Positions 14,927 to 31,176 of a stretch of 64,000 bases of DNA are shown here, in pieces. A program made the position numbers and the translations under genes. This stretch comes from a bacterium. Its GTDB lineage: Bacteria; Hinthialibacterota; Hinthialibacteria; H5-UNCL2. Location: assembly GCA_015075175.1 (NCBI GenBank), contig JABTUV010000007.1:1-64000 (forward strand). The letters are read 5' to 3'. Each line of letters begins with the position of its first letter. Position 1 is the stretch's first letter. The notes under the pieces were generated by a model. The model was not told where the DNA came from. It saw only the letters and a list, made by a program, of their open reading frames with translations, and did no database searches.

Positions 14927-15897
14927 GTTGTGGCTTGACGGAATCCCTGCTGATACACTTTTTCCATCCTGCCAGCATCCTGCTAGGCTGTGGCTGACGG
15001 GAATCCTGCTTGATACACTACCGGGGGGGCAGGCACCGGCTGTGGCTTCGACGGGAATCCCGCTTGACACTGCCCAGGATCGCCGCAGAGCACGGTGACG
15101 GCTGGTTTGACGGGAATCGCTTGGATACACTTCAAGAGCAAAAGTTTCTCAGCAATCACGCTGTGGCTTGACGGGAATCCCGCTTTGGTACACCTAGTGC
15201 GGGCAGGGCATGAAGTAGCGCCGCTGCTGTGGCTTGACGGAATCCCCGCGGATACACCCGCGTCTTCGCTGCCATCCTGCGGATTGGCTGTGGCTTGACG
15301 GGAACCCGCTGATACACCAGCGCACCCCGCTGGAAATCTCGATGCCCTGCTGTGGCTTGACGGGAATCCCCGCTTGGATACACTCGTACAGGCGCTCGAT
15401 GGCAGCGGCGATCTGCTGTGGCTTGACGGGAATCCCCGCTTGGATACACTCGCTGGTAGGCGCCAACGCGCCGTCCGGCCGCTGTGTTTGACGGGAATCC
15501 CGCTTGATACACTTGAACATCATGGATATTACATCGACTGCGCTGTGGCTTGACGGAATCGCTTGGATACACTCAAGCCCGATCGGGACAACGCGGACAA
15601 GGTGCTGTGGCTTGACGGGAATCCCCGCTTGGATACACTCGATGGGATGCTGGTTGCTGTAGTGCCAGTGCTGTGGCTTGACGGGAATCCCCGCTTGGAT
15701 ACACTTGCGGAAGAAGCTGCTATTACCGCCGCGGCGCTGTGGCTTGACGGGAATCCCGCTTGATACACTATCCAGGTCGTGACCCAGAAACCCAGCGGCT
15801 GTGGCTTGACGGGAATCCTCGCTTGGATACACTCCGAGGAGATAATTCACCGCACCGGCTGGCACCGGCTTTGACGGGAATCCCGGCTTGATACACT
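14927..15897 (+). CRISPR. Type II-C CRISPR array, 16 repeats and 15 spacers
   Basis: The consensus repeat is 36 bases, beginning GCTGTGGCTTGACGGG and ending CCGCTTGGATACACT. Perfect copies start at 15349, 15415, 15604 and 15670. Others begin near 14927, 14987, 15039, 15101, 15160, 15226, 15287, 15481, 15542, 15736, 15798 and 15867. Complete spacers are 30 bases. Many repeats miss one to five bases, mostly in the C and G runs, and the left-hand half is the worst, so either old repeats have decayed or the assembly has indels. Orientation is + because the repeat 3' end is the exact complement of the tracrRNA 5' end. Each repeat contains TTGACG-N16-TACACT, a built-in promoter. The array is convergent with cas2. 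Confidence 0.96.
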
Positions 15898-15944: not shown

Positions 15945-16307
15945 CTCAAAAGCGCCAATTGGGAGGGCGGTTCTTCGGTTTTGCGTCGTTTTTTCCCTTC
16001 AAAAACCTGCATCTTGGCGAACTGCCGGTCGGTAATCCCCACCAGCTGAACCTCCCCCTCGCGGCAGGCGTGCTTTGACCCGCTGGCGATAAACGTCCGC
16101 TTCTTCCTCGCTGGCGCAGAAGCGAACATACACCGAAAACTGCATCATGGTAAAGCCCTCCGACAGGAGCGCCTTACGGAACTTCGTATACTCCTTGCGC
16201 GCCCGCGCGTCGTCCACGGGCAGGTCGAACAGAGCGAACAGCCACATGGCGCGATACCCGGAAAGCTCCCTTTTCTTCTTTGCTCGCCATGAGAATCGGT
16301 CTGGCAT
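15945..16307 (-). CDS. cas2: CRISPR-associated Cas2, frameshifted
   Basis: Cas2 forms the adaptation complex with Cas1. The ferredoxin-fold core is clear: MWLFALFDLPVDDARARKEY, then LLSEGFTMMQFSVYVRFCAS. The protein then continues in another frame from about 16061 with EGEVQLVGITDRQFAKM. The final residues run PPSQLAL and should end Phe-stop, but a missing T in the AAAA run at 15948-15951 (+ strand) opens the frame into the array. The start is uncertain: Met at 16307, Met at 16247 (the MWLF Met), or one in a neighbouring frame at about 16290. The ELSGYRAMW lead-in, usual in II-C Cas2, favours an upstream start. Confidence 0.82.
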
Positions 16308-16334
16308 TTCGTGCGATCGCGAACAGAGAAAAAC

Positions 16335-16412
16335 CGAGTCCCTGAGTAGCGGCCCGCGAAAAGAAATACCGCAGGCGAATGTTCCATCTTGGGCCGCGTA
16401 TCGAAGGGCGGC
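16335..16412. repeat. Family D element between cas1 and cas2
   Basis: GAGTCCCTGAGTAGCGGCCCG at the left (with one mismatch to the family) and GGGCCGCGTATCGAAGGG at the right form the same arms seen at 36064-36148. The element separates cas1 from cas2, which are otherwise adjacent in II-C loci. Confidence 0.65.
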
Positions 16413-16439
16413 CCTATCGCTACAGGCCTTCCTCAAGCG

Positions 16440-17328
16440 CCCGTTACGGGCGTCCCGCAAAAGCGGCAGCCAGAGCCTCTCCTTTCCTCAAACACCGCCA
16501 GCGACCCCGCTACCCGGCCCACGATGTCAAAGCGTGCGGACTCGCCTTCCACCTCGAAGCGCCGCGTCAACGCGCCCACGATGGCCGCCTTGGCACTGGG
16601 GTTAAACTCACTTTGCCCCGTGCTGCTGCACCAGGCGTGACCGCGCGGTCCACCAGCGGGCGAAAGGGTTCCATGAGGTCGTCGGCCAGGGGGAACCCAC
16701 TGTATTTGTTGTGGTGGTGGAGTCCGAGAGCCGGATGCAGGCCGGCGGCGCAGACGGCGCGCGCGACGGTCGCCCGCAGCACGGCGTAGCCGTAGTTGAG
16801 CAGGCGGTTCTGGTCGGCCGCCTCGCGGTTGCGGCGGAAGCTCTCGCCGAAGAGGGCGGGCCAGTAGCGGCGGGACGCCTGCGCCTCGACGTTGGAGGGA
16901 TCGCCGGAACGGACCTTGTCCATGAGCACGTCAAAGGCCGCGGCGTCGCGTCCCAGCGTACGCAGCAGTTCGCCCTGGGCGGCGACCTTGGCGCGCACGA
17001 TCTGCTGCCACAGGCGCTTCTTGACCGGCCAGGCCGCCTCCGCCTGGCGCGCGAACCGCTCGACGACCACGTAGTTGCTCTGCAAGGGCAGCAGCATCAG
17101 CGCCGGCACGTGGTCCTCGTCGCAACCGACGAAGACGCCCCCCGCCTTGGCCAGTCCCGCAAGCACCGCCTGGGTGTACGTTACCTGCGGATGCGCGACC
17201 ACCAGCACGGCGATGTCGGAGAGCGGAACCGAGACGGTCTCCTCCCCGGCGAAATCCAAGAGCAGTTGCCCGTAGCGGACCTTCAGATAGGCGGACCGCT
17301 GCGAGATGTCCAGAATGCGGTCAGTCAT
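16440..17328 (-). CDS. cas1: CRISPR-associated integrase Cas1, C-terminus frameshifted
   Basis: Cas1 is the metal-dependent spacer integrase. The first 230 residues are intact in one frame: TDRILDISQRSAYLKVRYGQ, the metal-site Glu region, then GLHPALGLHHHNKYSGFPLADDL, whose His and Asp complete the active site, and LMEPFRPLVDRAV. Beyond about 16640 at least three frame changes are needed to follow the family: RLVQQHGA, then NPSAKAAIVGALTRRFEVEG, then KERLWLPLLRDARNG. The end near 16440 is therefore approximate. The ATG at 17328 overlaps the cas9 stop (ATGAC-TGA), showing translational coupling in the order cas9-cas1-cas2. Confidence 0.88.
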
Positions 17329-20300
17329 GGGCGTCTCGGACAAGCAGCCCAAGCCGATCGATGCAGACCTTCTTGGGCGCGCACTGCTTAAGGGCCTTTT
17401 CGCTTTGGATGCGGATACGCTCCGCCTTTCGATCAGATGCCTTTCGGGCATCAGTCAGCAGCGAGAACTCCATTTCCCTTGCGCTGATGCCAATACTGCG
17501 GACCAGCTTCCTCGCAGCCCATGTTGATTCGCCCCTTTTTGCGGGGATCTGCATCTCCACTACGTCTCCCCCTGCAAGCGAAAAGACGAACTTCGTCCCC
17601 GGACCGTGATCGGTCTTCACGATGGGTTGCTTCGCCTTCTTCCGCCGATAGGCTTCCAGCATATCCACCAGCGCCCAACCCATGCTCCCATCCGCCCGCT
17701 GGAAGACTTCCACGTGGTGGTTCTCCTTGGTCGTCACGAAGCGTTCGGTAGGCCCGCCGCCCACTTTCATGGGATTGACCGACGCCCGGATGCGCACCCG
17801 GCGGATGGGAACCGGGTCGCCGTGTTTGTTGGGCAGGTGCGGCAGATTGGCCTCGTCCTGGAAGAGCTTGGCCGGTTCGCCGCCGCCCAGTTCGGCGATC
17901 TTGGCCCGCACGACCTCCCGCACGCGCCCGTCCACGATGGCGTCCAGGTTCTTGTCGGACAGCTTGGTGATGGGGATGCGATAGACGCAGAAGGACTTGC
18001 CCTTCTCGTCCTTGCGGGGAGGCGAGTAATGCGTCTGCTCGTGCAAGGGGCCGGAGACGCGGCGGTCGACGCGATGCGAGACCACGATCTTGTCGATCGT
18101 TGCCTTGACCTCCTCGTAGAACCCGTGCCAGGGCGGCTCGCACTTGGGCAGCCAACCCAGCCGTCCGCGCCCGTCGCCGTACTTGGCCGCATCCGAGAGC
18201 ATCTTGACCGTGCGGGCGTCGGCAAAGGCGACGGCGACCGCGTCCACCGCGTGGTGGCGGTGGTCGGCGCGGGTCTTCTCTCCCCCGTCGCCAAGAATGC
18301 GGTTGAGCCCCCACACGTCGCGCAGATAGGCGGTGATCTGGCCCTTGCAGGTTTGCACGCGCATCCGTTTCATGTCCTCCGTGGGCGGGCCGTAGAGGCG
18401 TTGGAGGTACTGGGCCGCCACGCGGGAAATGTAGCGGGTGTCGTTGAGCTGGCGGCTGGAGAAGTCCTCAAACGATTCCAGCGAGGTCAGCGCGAAGCGC
18501 TGCCACTTGCGATTCGCCTCCTTCACCGTCTTCCTGACGTAGCCGTCCCTGACCTTCTTCACGTACACGCGCTCCACCCCCATGAAGCCGCGCACTCGCT
18601 TCAGCATGGCCTCCCAACGCTCGGGATCGCCGCCCTCGGTCTCGAACGGCGTCTGGTTCCGCTTGCGGTTGCGGTTGTATTCGACCTGGCAGATGGTTTT
18701 GTTGGCGAAGGAGTTGTCCAGGCAACGGCTGAAGGGGATGATGCTCCACGTCGAACTGAGGATGCTCGCTGAAGAGCCGGCCATGCCGAAAGAGAGGCCG
18801 GTATAGGGACAACGCCAACCGCACTCGTCGGCCAGAAGCAGCTTTTCGACGTTGCGGCGGTTGGCCTCGATTCCCTGCGACTCCAGGCGCTCTTTGGCGC
18901 TTTTGCGCAACTCGGCGCGGATGCTGTTCTGAGCGTGCAGTTCCATGCGGCGTGCGCGCGGATTCTTCATGTCGCGGGCCAGCTCGACGCGGATACGCTC
19001 CGGTTTGCCGAATCGCTTGACGACGGCGTTGACGACGCCCCGCAGCTCGGTCAGCGCCCGCTCGACCACCGGGTTGCGCAGGTCGCCGAAAGCCTGGCGG
19101 ACGGACGGCAACAGGTCCTCCGCCGCCGGCGCCGGCAGGTCGCCGAACGCCGCCATGCGCGCTTCCGTCACCGACAGCCCCGCCTCCAGATGGGGCAGCA
19201 GCATCTTGATCGCCTTGGCGGAGAAGGCGGCGTAATCGTCCTCCAGCTCGGCGGCCAGCTTGGCGAACTGCTCGGACTCGACGCGGGACAGTCCCCAACG
19301 TTTCTCCCCCCGCCGCGCCAGCTTGTCCATGCGCTGGAAGCTGCGCAGGTCGTGGATGATCGCCTCCCGCTCGGCGGGCGAGAACTGCCGCCAGCGTTCA
19401 TTGAAAAACGCCCGCAACTTCGCCTCGGTGCGGTTGCCGATCAGTTTGTCCTTGCCTTCATGTTCCAGATTAAATTCCCACGCCTTCTCCAAGCCCAACG
19501 CTTTGCGGGCCTTGGCAAACGTGAGATCACCCACGGCGTCCAACTCGAAGAGCAGTCGCTCCCGCTCTTTTTCATTCAGGCGCCGCTCCTCACCCGTGTC
19601 CTTGTGGGTGATCCGCAGGTTGTTAACCTCTTGCAGGAGGCGGAAGCGCTGCACCGGCGGGCTTGCCAAAGGCGCTCGCCGCAGGCGCGGGAAAACCTGA
19701 CAAGTGCCCACGAACTTCTTGGCGCTCTTGAGGGGGCGCTGGAAGAAGAGGTCCTTGAAGAGTCGCCGCTTAAGCTTGGGAGTGAGCAGCTCGGGATGGT
19801 GAGGCATCTGTGCCTCCCAAATTTTCTCAAACTCATCCTTATACATTTGACGAGAAGTATAGTTCTTACGAATCCGCCGCTGAGCTGGGTTGTGCCGAGA
19901 AAAGAGTTCACCCAACGTCCGGGCGCCGGTCGCCTCCATCTCCGACTTAATGGCGTTGATGCCGGTTTCCACCGCGCCCAGCTCCTTCTTATCCGCCTTC
20001 TTATCCAGCTTCGCGTTGCTCTGGTAGCCGCGCCGTTGGGCCAGGTGCAAGAAGACGCGCCCCAACTCGAACGGTTCCAGCCGGTGATCCAGCGCCCGCG
20101 CGCGCAAGAAGTAGGGAAGGATGTTCCGCCTTGGGTGGGACATGTCCGCGCCCTCTCCCAACTGCTTGTCGAGCGCTACCAGCGCCTCGTGTCGCGCCTG
20201 CGGACTCCCAAGGTCGCAAACGGGCGTCAACCCGTGCTGTTGCAGGCGCTTCCACACCTGCCGAATGCGCACCGCGCGGCGGTAGGTTTGCCGCCGCGCC

Positions 20301-20518
20301 AGGCGCGCCAACCGGCGCTCGCGGGCGTTGGACTCGTCTTTGCCCGCCTCAATGTCCCCGCTCACGGGCGCCTCGAAAATACGAACTCCCGCGTTCAGCA
20401 CCGCCACGGGGCTGGGTGCACGGTCCCCCAGGGGTCCATCCAAGGCTACCCGGCACCACCCCACCGAAGTCGGTCCCAAGTCCACGGCCAACAGGTACGG
20501 TCTCGATTCATGCGACAT
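17321..20518 (-). CDS. cas9: CRISPR-associated endonuclease Cas9, type II-C size
   Basis: This 1065-residue RNA-guided nuclease carries RuvC-I (LLAVDLGPTSVGW, Asp13), an Arg-rich bridge helix (RLARLARRQTYRRAVRIRQV), RuvC-II (RIRVELARDM, Glu near 511) and RuvC-III (HHAVDAVAVAFAD, near 756). RVDRRVSGPLHEQTHY in the C-terminal part is typical of II-C. The HNH core is broken by compensating indels: residues about 583-596 read as an unrelated Ser-rich stretch, while the neighbouring frame encodes LFSEHPQFDVEH followed by IIPFSRCLDNSF. The start is the ATG at 20518, preceded by AAGGGGG about ten bases upstream. An open frame continues back to 20641, but it overlaps the tracrRNA gene. Confidence 0.95.
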   Translation of the reverse strand: MSHESRPYLLAVDLGPTSVGWCRVALDGPLGDRAPSPVAVLNAGVRIFEAPVSGDIEAGKDESNARERRLARLARRQTYRRAVRIRQVWKRLQQHGLTPVCDLGSPQARHEALVALDKQLGEGADMSHPRRNILPYFLRARALDHRLEPFELGRVFLHLAQRRGYQSNAKLDKKADKKELGAVETGINAIKSEMEATGARTLGELFSRHNPAQRRIRKNYTSRQMYKDEFEKIWEAQMPHHPELLTPKLKRRLFKDLFFQRPLKSAKKFVGTCQVFPRLRRAPLASPPVQRFRLLQEVNNLRITHKDTGEERRLNEKERERLLFELDAVGDLTFAKARKALGLEKAWEFNLEHEGKDKLIGNRTEAKLRAFFNERWRQFSPAEREAIIHDLRSFQRMDKLARRGEKRWGLSRVESEQFAKLAAELEDDYAAFSAKAIKMLLPHLEAGLSVTEARMAAFGDLPAPAAEDLLPSVRQAFGDLRNPVVERALTELRGVVNAVVKRFGKPERIRVELARDMKNPRARRMELHAQNSIRAELRKSAKERLESQGIEANRRNVEKLLLADECGWRCPYTGLSFGMAGSSASILSSTWSIIPFSRCLDNSFANKTICQVEYNRNRKRNQTPFETEGGDPERWEAMLKRVRGFMGVERVYVKKVRDGYVRKTVKEANRKWQRFALTSLESFEDFSSRQLNDTRYISRVAAQYLQRLYGPPTEDMKRMRVQTCKGQITAYLRDVWGLNRILGDGGEKTRADHRHHAVDAVAVAFADARTVKMLSDAAKYGDGRGRLGWLPKCEPPWHGFYEEVKATIDKIVVSHRVDRRVSGPLHEQTHYSPPRKDEKGKSFCVYRIPITKLSDKNLDAIVDGRVREVVRAKIAELGGGEPAKLFQDEANLPHLPNKHGDPVPIRRVRIRASVNPMKVGGGPTERFVTTKENHHVEVFQRADGSMGWALVDMLEAYRRKKAKQPIVKTDHGPGTKFVFSLAGGDVVEMQIPAKRGESTWAARKLVRSIGISAREMEFSLLTDARKASDRKAERIRIQSEKALKQCAPKKVCIDRLGLLVRDAHD

Positions 20519-20531
20519 GTCAATTTCCCCC

Positions 20532-20561
20532 TTGACAATTGGAATCCGCCTGGAATACCCT
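20532..20561 (+). promoter_or_regulatory. Promoter of the tracrRNA
   Basis: A perfect -35 TTGACA (20532-20537), an 18-base spacer and TACCCT (20556-20561). It predicts a start at 20568, exactly the first base of the anti-repeat. The -35 overlaps the untranslated leader of divergent cas9. Confidence 0.7.
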
Positions 20562-20567
20562 TTGGTC

Positions 20568-20684
20568 AGTGTATCCAAGCGGTGATTGCTCTGCTTGTCA
20601 TAGCAAGCTTTCACGCAAGGCAAGGCTCCAGGGAGCCCCACGGCCGGCGCGCCTCGATTGAGGATTGCCGGCCTTTTTCTTTTT
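20568..20684 (+). ncRNA. tracrRNA
   Basis: The first 15 bases (20568-20582) are the exact complement of the last 15 bases of the CRISPR repeat. Further on, GTCATAGC (20597-20604) can pair with the repeat 5' end GCTGTGGC through two G-U pairs. This gives the usual upper and lower duplex with an internal bulge. Next come an AAGC/CAAGG nexus-like segment and a hairpin (GGCTCC, 20624-20629, with GGAGCC, 20632-20637), then the terminator hairpin. Total length is about 117 bases. It lies 50 bases from the cas9 start and is divergent from it. It would guide crRNA processing by RNase III and crRNA loading on Cas9. Confidence 0.9.
20642..20684 (+). terminator. Intrinsic terminator of the tracrRNA
   Basis: A perfect 7 bp GGCCGGC/GCCGGCC stem (20642-20648 with 20667-20673) holds a nested CCTC-GATT-GAGG hairpin. 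It is followed by ten T interrupted by one C (20674-20684). Confidence 0.93.
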
Positions 20685-20777
20685 GAGCAGGCGCACAGTA
20701 GGAGATGCGGTAAGAATAGCCTACATTTCAGGACTCAACAAGGGTGTTAAGTTTGTTCTCCGGCTGGTGGGGAGGCC

Positions 20778-20798
20778 GGTGCGCGGTGCGCACCCTAC
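20778..20798 (-). repeat. REP family B unit
   Basis: A single 21-base unit identical to the arms at 2032-2105, reading GTAG then GGTGCGC-ACC-GCGCACC on the - strand. Its TAG (20795-20797) is the stop codon of the CotH-like gene. Confidence 0.9.
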
Positions 20799-23700
20799 CG
20801 CAAGAAATGCCAAGCTGATTCAAGCACGGCGCTGGGAGCGGAAATCACGATCTCCAATTGCCGGTCCGACTCCAGCCCGCTGCCGTCGCGCGCGCGGAAG
20901 GTGAGCACGCTGCGCCCCGGCTCACGCACCTCCACACTCATCCATCCATCACTCGACAGCGAGGCCAGAAGCGCGGTCGTGTTGCTCTGATGCAGGAGCG
21001 AAATCTCCAGTTGTCCCGAGGGCGTGAAATCGTCCACGACGAAGGCAGACACACGTAAGACCCGGTCATAGTTTCTCGGCGTCGGACCATAGCTCAAAAG
21101 ATGGGGCAAAAACCACTGCGGCGGATGATTGGCGCCGGGCGGGATGGTAGGCGTCGGCGTGGGCGTGGGTGTCGGCGTGGGCGTCGGGGTCGGAGTTACT
21201 ACCGACGTGGTGAAGCTCCCCTCGCTCGACCACCATCCCCACTTGTTGGTCTCATCGCCGTAACGGGCGCGCCACTTGTACGTCATCCCACCGGAGAGAA
21301 TTCCCGCGGGAACCCGGACCTCCGTCGTCCCCGGTTCGATCCTGCCGCTGTCCCACAACGGAAAGAGCCAGTCACCGCCGCTCTCCACAATCATCCAGCG
21401 CGAGCCGGCGAACACGGCGTTGCCGTTCGGGTCGGAGAATGCGCCGGCGCGCAACACCACGCGGTCCGGATGCGTGTCGCTCACCGGCAGGAGTACCGGC
21501 GCCGCCGGCATCTGCGAATCCTGGACCATGGGCAGGAGCTCCGTGCGGCGGTTCAGAATCCAGTTCTTGGTATTGGCGATGCGTTCCGCCAAACTCCGGT
21601 AGTCCCCGTGCGCGGGCTGCAGTTCGAGCGGCGTCGTGCCGCCGATGCGGTTGGTGAGGGGCGCGTAGTCCCACCGCCACCGGTCCGCGGCGGCGATCTC
21701 GGTGAGAAACGCCTCTTTCTCGTCCAGCAGGGGAAACATGTACTCGGGCGTGAACATGAGTTGATACAGCTCGCGCAATCTATTCAGATATTCCTGATAG
21801 AGCGCGGGGACCGCCTTGAACGCCTGCCACAGATAGCCGTTATTCGAGTTGGTCAGAGACTGCGCCGTCATCACGTGGTCCACGTCCCACGGCCCCTCCT
21901 CCCAGCGGCCCGTCATCGGATTGCGATAATAATAATAGTTCTTATATGTCAAATCATAGTGGCGCAGCAGTTCGCCGACGGCGCGGTAGCTTATATAGGT
22001 ATCGAGCTGCAAATTGTTCTGAAACCACGCCAGCGTAGGGCTGGATCGATAGCCGGAGCGGAACGCCAACACGTCGCTCTGATCCGTGTCCCAGTCGAGT
22101 GCGTGCTTATCGAAGACGCTGTTGAATTCATGATCCACCTTGTAGAGGGGGCCCACGGGACGGTTGATGCGCTCCAGCGCGTTCTCGTTGGGCGCCTCGA
22201 TGTCCTTGAAGGTACCGAACCAGTCGCCGTAATACTGGTCGAACTCGACCGGCGAATCCACGATTTTCAACTGTGAGAAGACGCACTGCCACGAAATGAC
22301 GCCCACGCGGCGGAAGAGCTCGTAGGCCATCCACTCGGTGACGCCGGTGTCGCCGCGGATGCGTCCCGGCGGATAATGCTCGCTTACCAGATTGATGCGG
22401 CTGCGCTCGTAAGCATACGGGTTTCCGTCGTTGTCGCGGCCCTGGGCGGTGCCCGGAAGGGAGCTTCAGGCGCCAGCTGCGCTTGGGATAGTGAAAACGG
22501 TGCGCGGTTCCTCCGCGCAAGCGCATCCGCACGTGGTCGTACACGTCGCCCTCATAGTAAAGAGTTACGCGCCACTTGTAATCGTTGCTGTAGATGCCGT
22601 TGAACTGCGCCTCATAGAAATCATAGGGATGGCCGATCATGGTGTAGGTGGGAATGGTGGGATGGTGTGTGCCGTCATAGACGAAATAAGCGTAGTTGGG
22701 CTGCGGATCATCCAGGTAGGGAGAATACTCGATCTTTCCCTGCGAATCCTCGGCGCGGATGCGATAACGCACAAGGTGGCGGTGGGGAAAGGGCGGGATG
22801 ACCCCGACGTAGGCGCCGTCGCCCGCGATGAGATCGGGACTCCGCCCGTCGTCGCGCAGGGGCACGACGGTCCACGTGCTCTCATAGGTCGAATCCGAAA
22901 TGCGATGGTATCCGCCGGGCGGATTGTCCTGCATCTCCAGGGTCGCGGCGCGAATCATTCCGGAATCGTCTGAAATATTGCAGCGTACCACCACCGTGTC
23001 GCTGGAGCGCGGCTGGTAGGGAACATGCGAGACGGAAGAGATGAAGGGCGGCAGGTTGTCGGTGCGCTGGGTGTTGACGCGGCCGGGCGTCGCCAGCGCG
23101 GTCGCGGGCGCTGCGCCGGTGATGCGGCCGGCACAGCCCGAAACCCCATATGTACTGCCGCTCATGCGCGCCTCCAGCGTGATTCCCGGGGTAAGAAACT
23201 TCACCCACATGGTCACGTGGTAAATCTCGCCGATCGCCACGGCCTCGTACATGGGTTCCTGCTTGAGGCTGTTGGTCGTGCTGCCGCCGCCGCCCGAGGC
23301 TACGAGTCGCACCGCGCCGTCGCCCAGATAGGTGTCCTCGCTCATGACATAGCTGCCCGCGTGATTGCCCACCACCTGCCAAAGGCCGAAGCCCTCGTCA
23401 AAGCTGCCGTCGCCGATGGAATTGGTCGCGCTTCCCACCCGCACCACTTCAACTTCATCCACCAACACTTCACCAGGCGAGAGCAGATAGATATAGAAGC
23501 GGCTGAGCGTCCCCGCCGTGCCCGGCCCGCTGAAGGTGAAGCGCTGCCAAGTCGGCTCGGGGGGACGCGCGCCCGCTCCGCGCCAGTTGTCGGGCAGCGC
23601 ATTGGACCGGAAGGGATTCAGAAGCTCCAGCGAGGCGCCCGTGCCGTCGGGCGACACCGGCCAATCGGGCCGGTCGTCGTAGCGCACCGTATCGATCACC

Positions 23701-30641: not shown

Positions 30642-30980
30642 CGCCGGCGTCCCGCCGGCTTGCGTGTGGGAATCCTGCCCACACGCTTCGTGGCCAATGG
30701 ACCGGCGCGCCGGACGGAAGTACTTTTTTCCCTCGTCGAATCGATTTTTCTGGACTTGCCGGCCGGTTATGTTAGCGTTCACACGGTCGTCGCAGAAATG
30801 CGGTTCGATCTCCCCCCGAACGACGTTCAAGTTACAGGTACTACCGTGCCCCTGCCCGGGACCCAGAGTCCCAAACCTACCGTGCTCCTGCCCTTCCTAT
30901 CCGCTTCGCCCGGCGGACCCTAGCGTCGCAAGACCTGCGGTCCGCCGGGCCGCACCTCGCGGTCCTTTGGTGCGCTCCCA

Positions 30981-31176
30981 GCTGTCATCTCGACCGCAGC
31001 TGTCATTCCGACCACAGCTGTCATTCCGACCGCAGCTGTCATTCCGACCACAGCTGTCATTCCGACCGCAGCTGTCATTTCGACCGCAGCTGTCATTTCG
31101 ACCGAAGGGAGAAATCTTCTCTGCCATCCACCGGCCCTGCGCGCAAACAGGATTTCTCCCTGCGGTCGAAATGACA
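30981..31176. repeat. Family A repeat cluster
   Basis: Seven head-to-tail copies of AGCTGTCATTYCGACC, alternating CCGCAGC and CCACAGC linkers, lead into the full element (TTTCGACCGAAGGGAGAAATC) and its inverted partner ending GGTCGAAATGACAG. The 570-base gap 30642-31212 contains nothing else I can support. Confidence 0.88.

Follow-up and report, generated by a model that had tools for sequence, protein, structure and literature searches.

In type II-C systems of clustered regularly interspaced short palindromic repeats (CRISPR), genes for the trans-activating CRISPR RNA (tracrRNA) have been described upstream of cas9 in the EHCas9 locus (PMC10281378) and in Clostridium cellulolyticum (PMC7038990). 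Each is a gene of ∼100 nt beside the start of cas9, with a promoter, an anti-repeat and a terminator, and in both loci the array is transcribed opposite to the cas genes. Such an orientation of the array has been described for types II-B and II-C (PMC3936727). In the minimal type II-C CRISPR system of Campylobacter jejuni the tracrRNA pairs with the repeat, and promoters borne by the repeats were shown (PMC3656092); repeat-borne promoters are also reported for Neisseria meningitidis, as cited in PMC7038990. The window analyzed here, a stretch of 64,000 nt from a bacterium of the Hinthialibacterota (assembly GCA_015075175.1, contig JABTUV010000007.1, positions 1 to 64,000 of the forward strand), almost certainly carries a complete type II-C tracrRNA gene, an ordinary member of the known kind, divergent from cas9.

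The window matches the EHCas9 and C. cellulolyticum loci in the size, parts and placing of the gene and in the direction of the array. It differs from them in sequence, and its tracrRNA −35 box overlaps the cas9 ribosome-binding site, a feature for which the window alone of the three loci was examined. As in C. jejuni, the tracrRNA is predicted to pair with the repeat, whereas the window repeat has one box resembling a −35 element and another resembling a −10 element, a putative promoter.

The tracrRNA gene

The predicted promoter, anti-repeat, hairpins, terminator and layout of the gene are borne out by its sequence and by comparison with relatives. The upper block of the anti-repeat, AGTGTATCCAAGCGGTGATT (20568–20587, + strand), can pair with the 3′ end of the locus's own CRISPR repeat at 19 of 20 positions, beginning with 15 uninterrupted matches. 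Local alignment of the anti-repeat gave a score of 35, against at most 26 at any other site in the window outside the array. Its RNA duplex with the repeat, at −48 kcal/mol, was the best in the window; the second-best separate site reached −42 kcal/mol. By neither measure did the window hold a better anti-repeat, and across the genome the array repeats were the only strong partial matches to it.

Co-folding of repeat and tracrRNA gave, in order, the upper duplex, an internal loop, a lower stem and three hairpins, with T runs after the last. In the lower stem the second block of the anti-repeat, GTCATAGC (20597–20604, + strand), pairs with GCTGTGGC at repeat positions 1–8, G-U pairs included. 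The first hairpin, GCTTT-CACGC-AAGGC (20607–20621, + strand), is nexus-like and has a counterpart at the same place in most relatives; its combined p value over the loci was 0.0005, but in the window alone it was 0.2 and not significant. The second, GGCTC-CAGG-GAGCC (20624–20637, + strand), was obtained in the co-fold and in the single fold. The gene closes with an intrinsic terminator (20642–20684, + strand) made of a GC-rich stem (20642–20649 paired with 20666–20673) and T runs at 20674–20684; this fragment folded alone at −22.9 kcal/mol. No sign of damage was seen in the tracrRNA gene itself.

The gene has its own predicted promoter at the right distance. A −35 box, TTGACA (20532–20537, + strand), and a weak −10 box, TACCCT (20556–20561, + strand), are separated by 18 nt and predict a start at the A at 20568, the first base of the anti-repeat. 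The promoter scored 9.0; among random 15-position stretches taken from the window, the 99th percentile was 6.5. The spacing is slightly long compared with relatives (mostly 16–17 nt), and the predicted start could be off by one or two bases.

Comparison with related loci

Searching 386 genomes at E ≤ 1e-80 gave 20 relatives besides the window, and one more was taken from genome contigs. Cas9 of the window was at most 47% identical to those found. Neither viral contigs nor the phyla to which two of the best relatives belong contained a closer one, and plasmid matches were below 35% identity among the matches listed. Sixteen loci, window included, had an array on the DNA fetched and were used for comparison of repeats and anti-repeats.

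All 16 had an anti-repeat near the start of cas9, within a tracrRNA gene reading away from cas9. In a matrix of duplex energies of every repeat with every anti-repeat, each anti-repeat had its own repeat as best or tied best partner (mean −54 kcal/mol), and none of 20,000 permutations was as good as the observed mean of own pairs. In the other direction the own anti-repeat was best for every repeat except that of locus L033, where it came second by 0.8 kcal/mol. The tie in the matrix is between L010 and L039, which are closely related and have identical repeats. For the group as a whole, no evidence for function is stronger than this co-change of repeat and anti-repeat.

A sigma-70-like promoter scoring at least 9 was found immediately before the anti-repeat in 15 of 19 loci, its −10 box beginning 9–16 nt ahead of it; a predicted start that coincides with the anti-repeat, give or take a few bases, is therefore a shared trait. 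In single folds the window and most relatives had nexus hairpin, second hairpin and terminator in this order, the stems differing in sequence; the terminator of L034 was missed by the search pattern used.

A preliminary description of this DNA had proposed a complete type II-C tracrRNA gene that begins at the anti-repeat and diverges from cas9. The promoter TTGACA-N18-TACCCT, the A at the predicted start 20568 and the 15-base perfect complement that it named were read directly. The second complementary block appeared in the co-fold, the nexus-like part, hairpin and terminator with a T run both there and in the single folds, and the proposal as a whole is upheld by alignment, co-fold, promoter and the matrix of 16 loci.

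The cas genes and the array

Leftward from 20518 the order is cas9, cas1, a broken cas2-like frame and then the array. cas9 (17321–20518, − strand) encodes 1065 amino acids, matches TIGR01865 with 610 bits against a cut-off of 100 and retains the RuvC motifs. It is the one full-length Cas9 in the genome; a second, short match of the Cas9 model on another contig was below the cut-off. Searching solved structures with it gave full-length Cas9 chains as the top matches, the first being 6jdv, the type II-C Cas9 of N. meningitidis. cas1 (16567–17328, − strand) matches the type II Cas1 family TIGR03639 over profile positions 2–230 of 278. The cas2-like frame (approximately 15950–16247, − strand) was assigned by position and translation, no family match being obtained. 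From cas1 to the array no space that could take a further cas gene was seen, csn2 and cas4 not having been searched for.

The array (14927–15897, + strand) has 16 repeats with the consensus GCTGTGGCTTGACGGGAATCCCCGCTTGGATACACT. Every intact repeat contains TTGACG-N16-TACACT, which has a promoter score of 9.7 and is in line with the repeat-borne promoters of C. jejuni and N. meningitidis. The orientation of the anti-repeat fixes the + strand as the reading strand of the array; the cas genes run the other way. The locus has a type II Cas9, an array opposite to the cas genes and promoter elements in the repeats, the last predicted from the letters of the repeats, as expected of type II-C.

Upstream of the tracrRNA region, a gene at 20795–22330 on the − strand matches CotH kinase (PF08757). 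Elsewhere in the window, 30979–31107 consists of about seven head-to-tail copies of the 18-nt unit CAGCTGTCATTCCGACCG.

State of the locus

Several points weigh against the identification of a tracrRNA gene that serves a working system. The −10 box TACCCT is weak, and no Rfam family was matched above threshold. RNAalifold applied to a MAFFT alignment of nine 3′ halves returned almost no consensus structure, the alignment being too poor; the evidence for shared hairpins comes from single folds for this reason. Indels in the array, cas1, cas2 and cas9 make the activity of this copy uncertain.

These indels would also fit a relic, an intact tracrRNA gene in a system that is dead. Only 4 of the 16 repeats are exact copies of the consensus, and in most of the remainder between one and several bases are missing. 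Frame changes interrupt cas1 at its 3′ end and also the cas2-like frame (15950–16640). In cas9, ∼17 residues of the HNH domain (18738–18776) are out of frame, flanked by two close indels that together leave the gene open; the catalytic HNH histidine, present in all compared relatives, is thereby lost from the deposited reading of Cas9. Yet many of the missing bases fall in single-base runs, as would be expected of uncorrected long-read errors, and the HNH motif FDVEH persists in a different frame. The cas9 gene is otherwise open across 1065 codons, and tracrRNA and repeat continue to match each other. Uncorrected sequencing errors are the preferred and probable reading of the indels in the array, cas1, the cas2-like frame and the HNH region; a system that is dead through real decay is unlikely.

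The control region shared with cas9

The cas9 ribosome-binding site, AAGGGGG (20527–20533, − strand), overlaps the −35 box of the tracrRNA promoter by 2 nt. The preliminary description had placed this box within the cas9 leader and had treated the arrangement as notable. The placing was correct; the arrangement is not particular to the window, since several relatives share it. The cas9 start codon and the first anti-repeat base are 50 nt apart in the window, L031 and L034, 48 nt in L033, 52 nt in L036, 49 nt in L037 and 46 nt in L046; where a locus had several possible cas9 starts, one with a plausible ribosome-binding site was taken. Distances of 46–52 nt in seven loci make the compact head-to-head layout a shared trait, common but not universal in the group, and longer distances occur elsewhere (e.g., 135 nt in L032 and 162 nt in L013).

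With the cas9 ribosome-binding site lying partly on the tracrRNA promoter, the 5′ end of the cas9 mRNA must fall in that promoter, in the tracrRNA gene or farther out, and the mRNA must be antisense to it. The best candidate promoters on the cas9 strand in the window are two, neither of them strong: TTGTTG-N17-TATTCT, with its −10 box at 20718–20713 beyond the tracrRNA terminator, and ATGACA-N17-TTGGAT, with its −10 box at 20578–20573 inside the anti-repeat. With either of them the cas9 leader would run antisense across part of the tracrRNA gene or promoter. If both genes were transcribed at once, mutual interference, which the preliminary description had suggested, would be plausible in principle.

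A general rule that the reverse strand of the anti-repeat, as a mirror of the repeat promoter, is the cas9 promoter was rejected: the score in the window was only 0.8, and the combined p value over 19 loci was a marginal 0.03. Separately, in L031, L033, L036 and the pair L010/L039, the strand of the anti-repeat that faces cas9 is a strong consensus promoter and the best candidate there (e.g., TTGCAA-N17-TACAAT in L033). In these five loci it is perhaps the cas9 promoter.

The overlap of the tracrRNA promoter with the cas9 leader, together with cas9-strand candidates lying within or beyond the tracrRNA gene, would also suit an RNA whose main role is antisense regulation of cas9 by way of the leader that they share, in place of partnership with the CRISPR RNA (crRNA). 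A purely antisense role would not need repeat and anti-repeat to change together across relatives, as they do, and this explanation is considered very improbable. That the likeness to a tracrRNA gene arose by chance and no such gene is present draws on the missing Rfam match and nothing else, and is given practically no credence in view of the alignment and duplex scores of the anti-repeat, the promoter and the co-change across relatives, the last of which in effect refutes it.

A repeat-like stretch in the tracrRNA promoter

From the −35 to the −10 box (20531–20561) the tracrRNA promoter resembles the repeat in direct orientation, with CTTGAC, GGAAT, CCGC, TGG and ATAC.CT in the same order (CTTGACAATTGGAATCCGCCTGGAATACCCT compared with CTTGACGGGAATCCCCGCTTGGATACACT). 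Shuffling of the 18-nt spacer only gave p = 0.0014 and shuffling of the region p = 0.001. The likeness was noticed after the fact, and p rises to ∼0.016 once the 16 loci are allowed for. As a rule for the family, a promoter derived from a repeat was rejected (combined p = 0.11 over 16 loci, with no relative clear).

It is doubtful that the promoter is a captured, degenerate CRISPR repeat with an inverted anti-repeat directly after it; the likeness may be chance, helped by both being promoters. If the promoter were a captured repeat, the tracrRNA would start as a crRNA does, ∼7 bases after a repeat, and the origin of such tracrRNA genes from two oppositely directed repeats would be supported.

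The long form of the Streptococcus pyogenes tracrRNA is a natural single guide that acts on the cas promoter. Like S. pyogenes, the window has a tracrRNA gene beside cas9 that could affect cas9 expression. A natural single-guide form was rejected for the window. In contrast to S. pyogenes, the repeat-like stretch upstream of the anti-repeat here lacks what would be repeat bases 1–7; a lower stem could therefore not form, and no natural single guide is indicated.

Proposed working and significance

For the tracrRNA gene as identified here, transcription, processing by RNase III and binding by Cas9 are proposed by analogy with known type II-C systems. RNA polymerase would start at about 20568 and end in the T runs at about 20680, yielding an RNA of ∼110–117 nt. 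Its first 37 bases would form the upper duplex, internal loop and lower stem with the repeat-derived portion of the crRNA. RNase III would cut within the upper duplex, and Cas9 would bind the lower stem, the nexus and the hairpins after it. The array, which lies on the same strand, would supply the crRNAs, probably by transcription from promoters within the individual repeats.

The predicted gene provides a complete guide-RNA scaffold with clear limits. The Cas9 that it would serve belongs to a distant lineage, sharing no more than 47% identity with any relative found, and comes from a bacterial phylum with few genomes available. The head-to-head arrangement of cas9 and the tracrRNA gene with overlapping signals, a trait of several type II-C loci, would offer a testable case for mutual interference.
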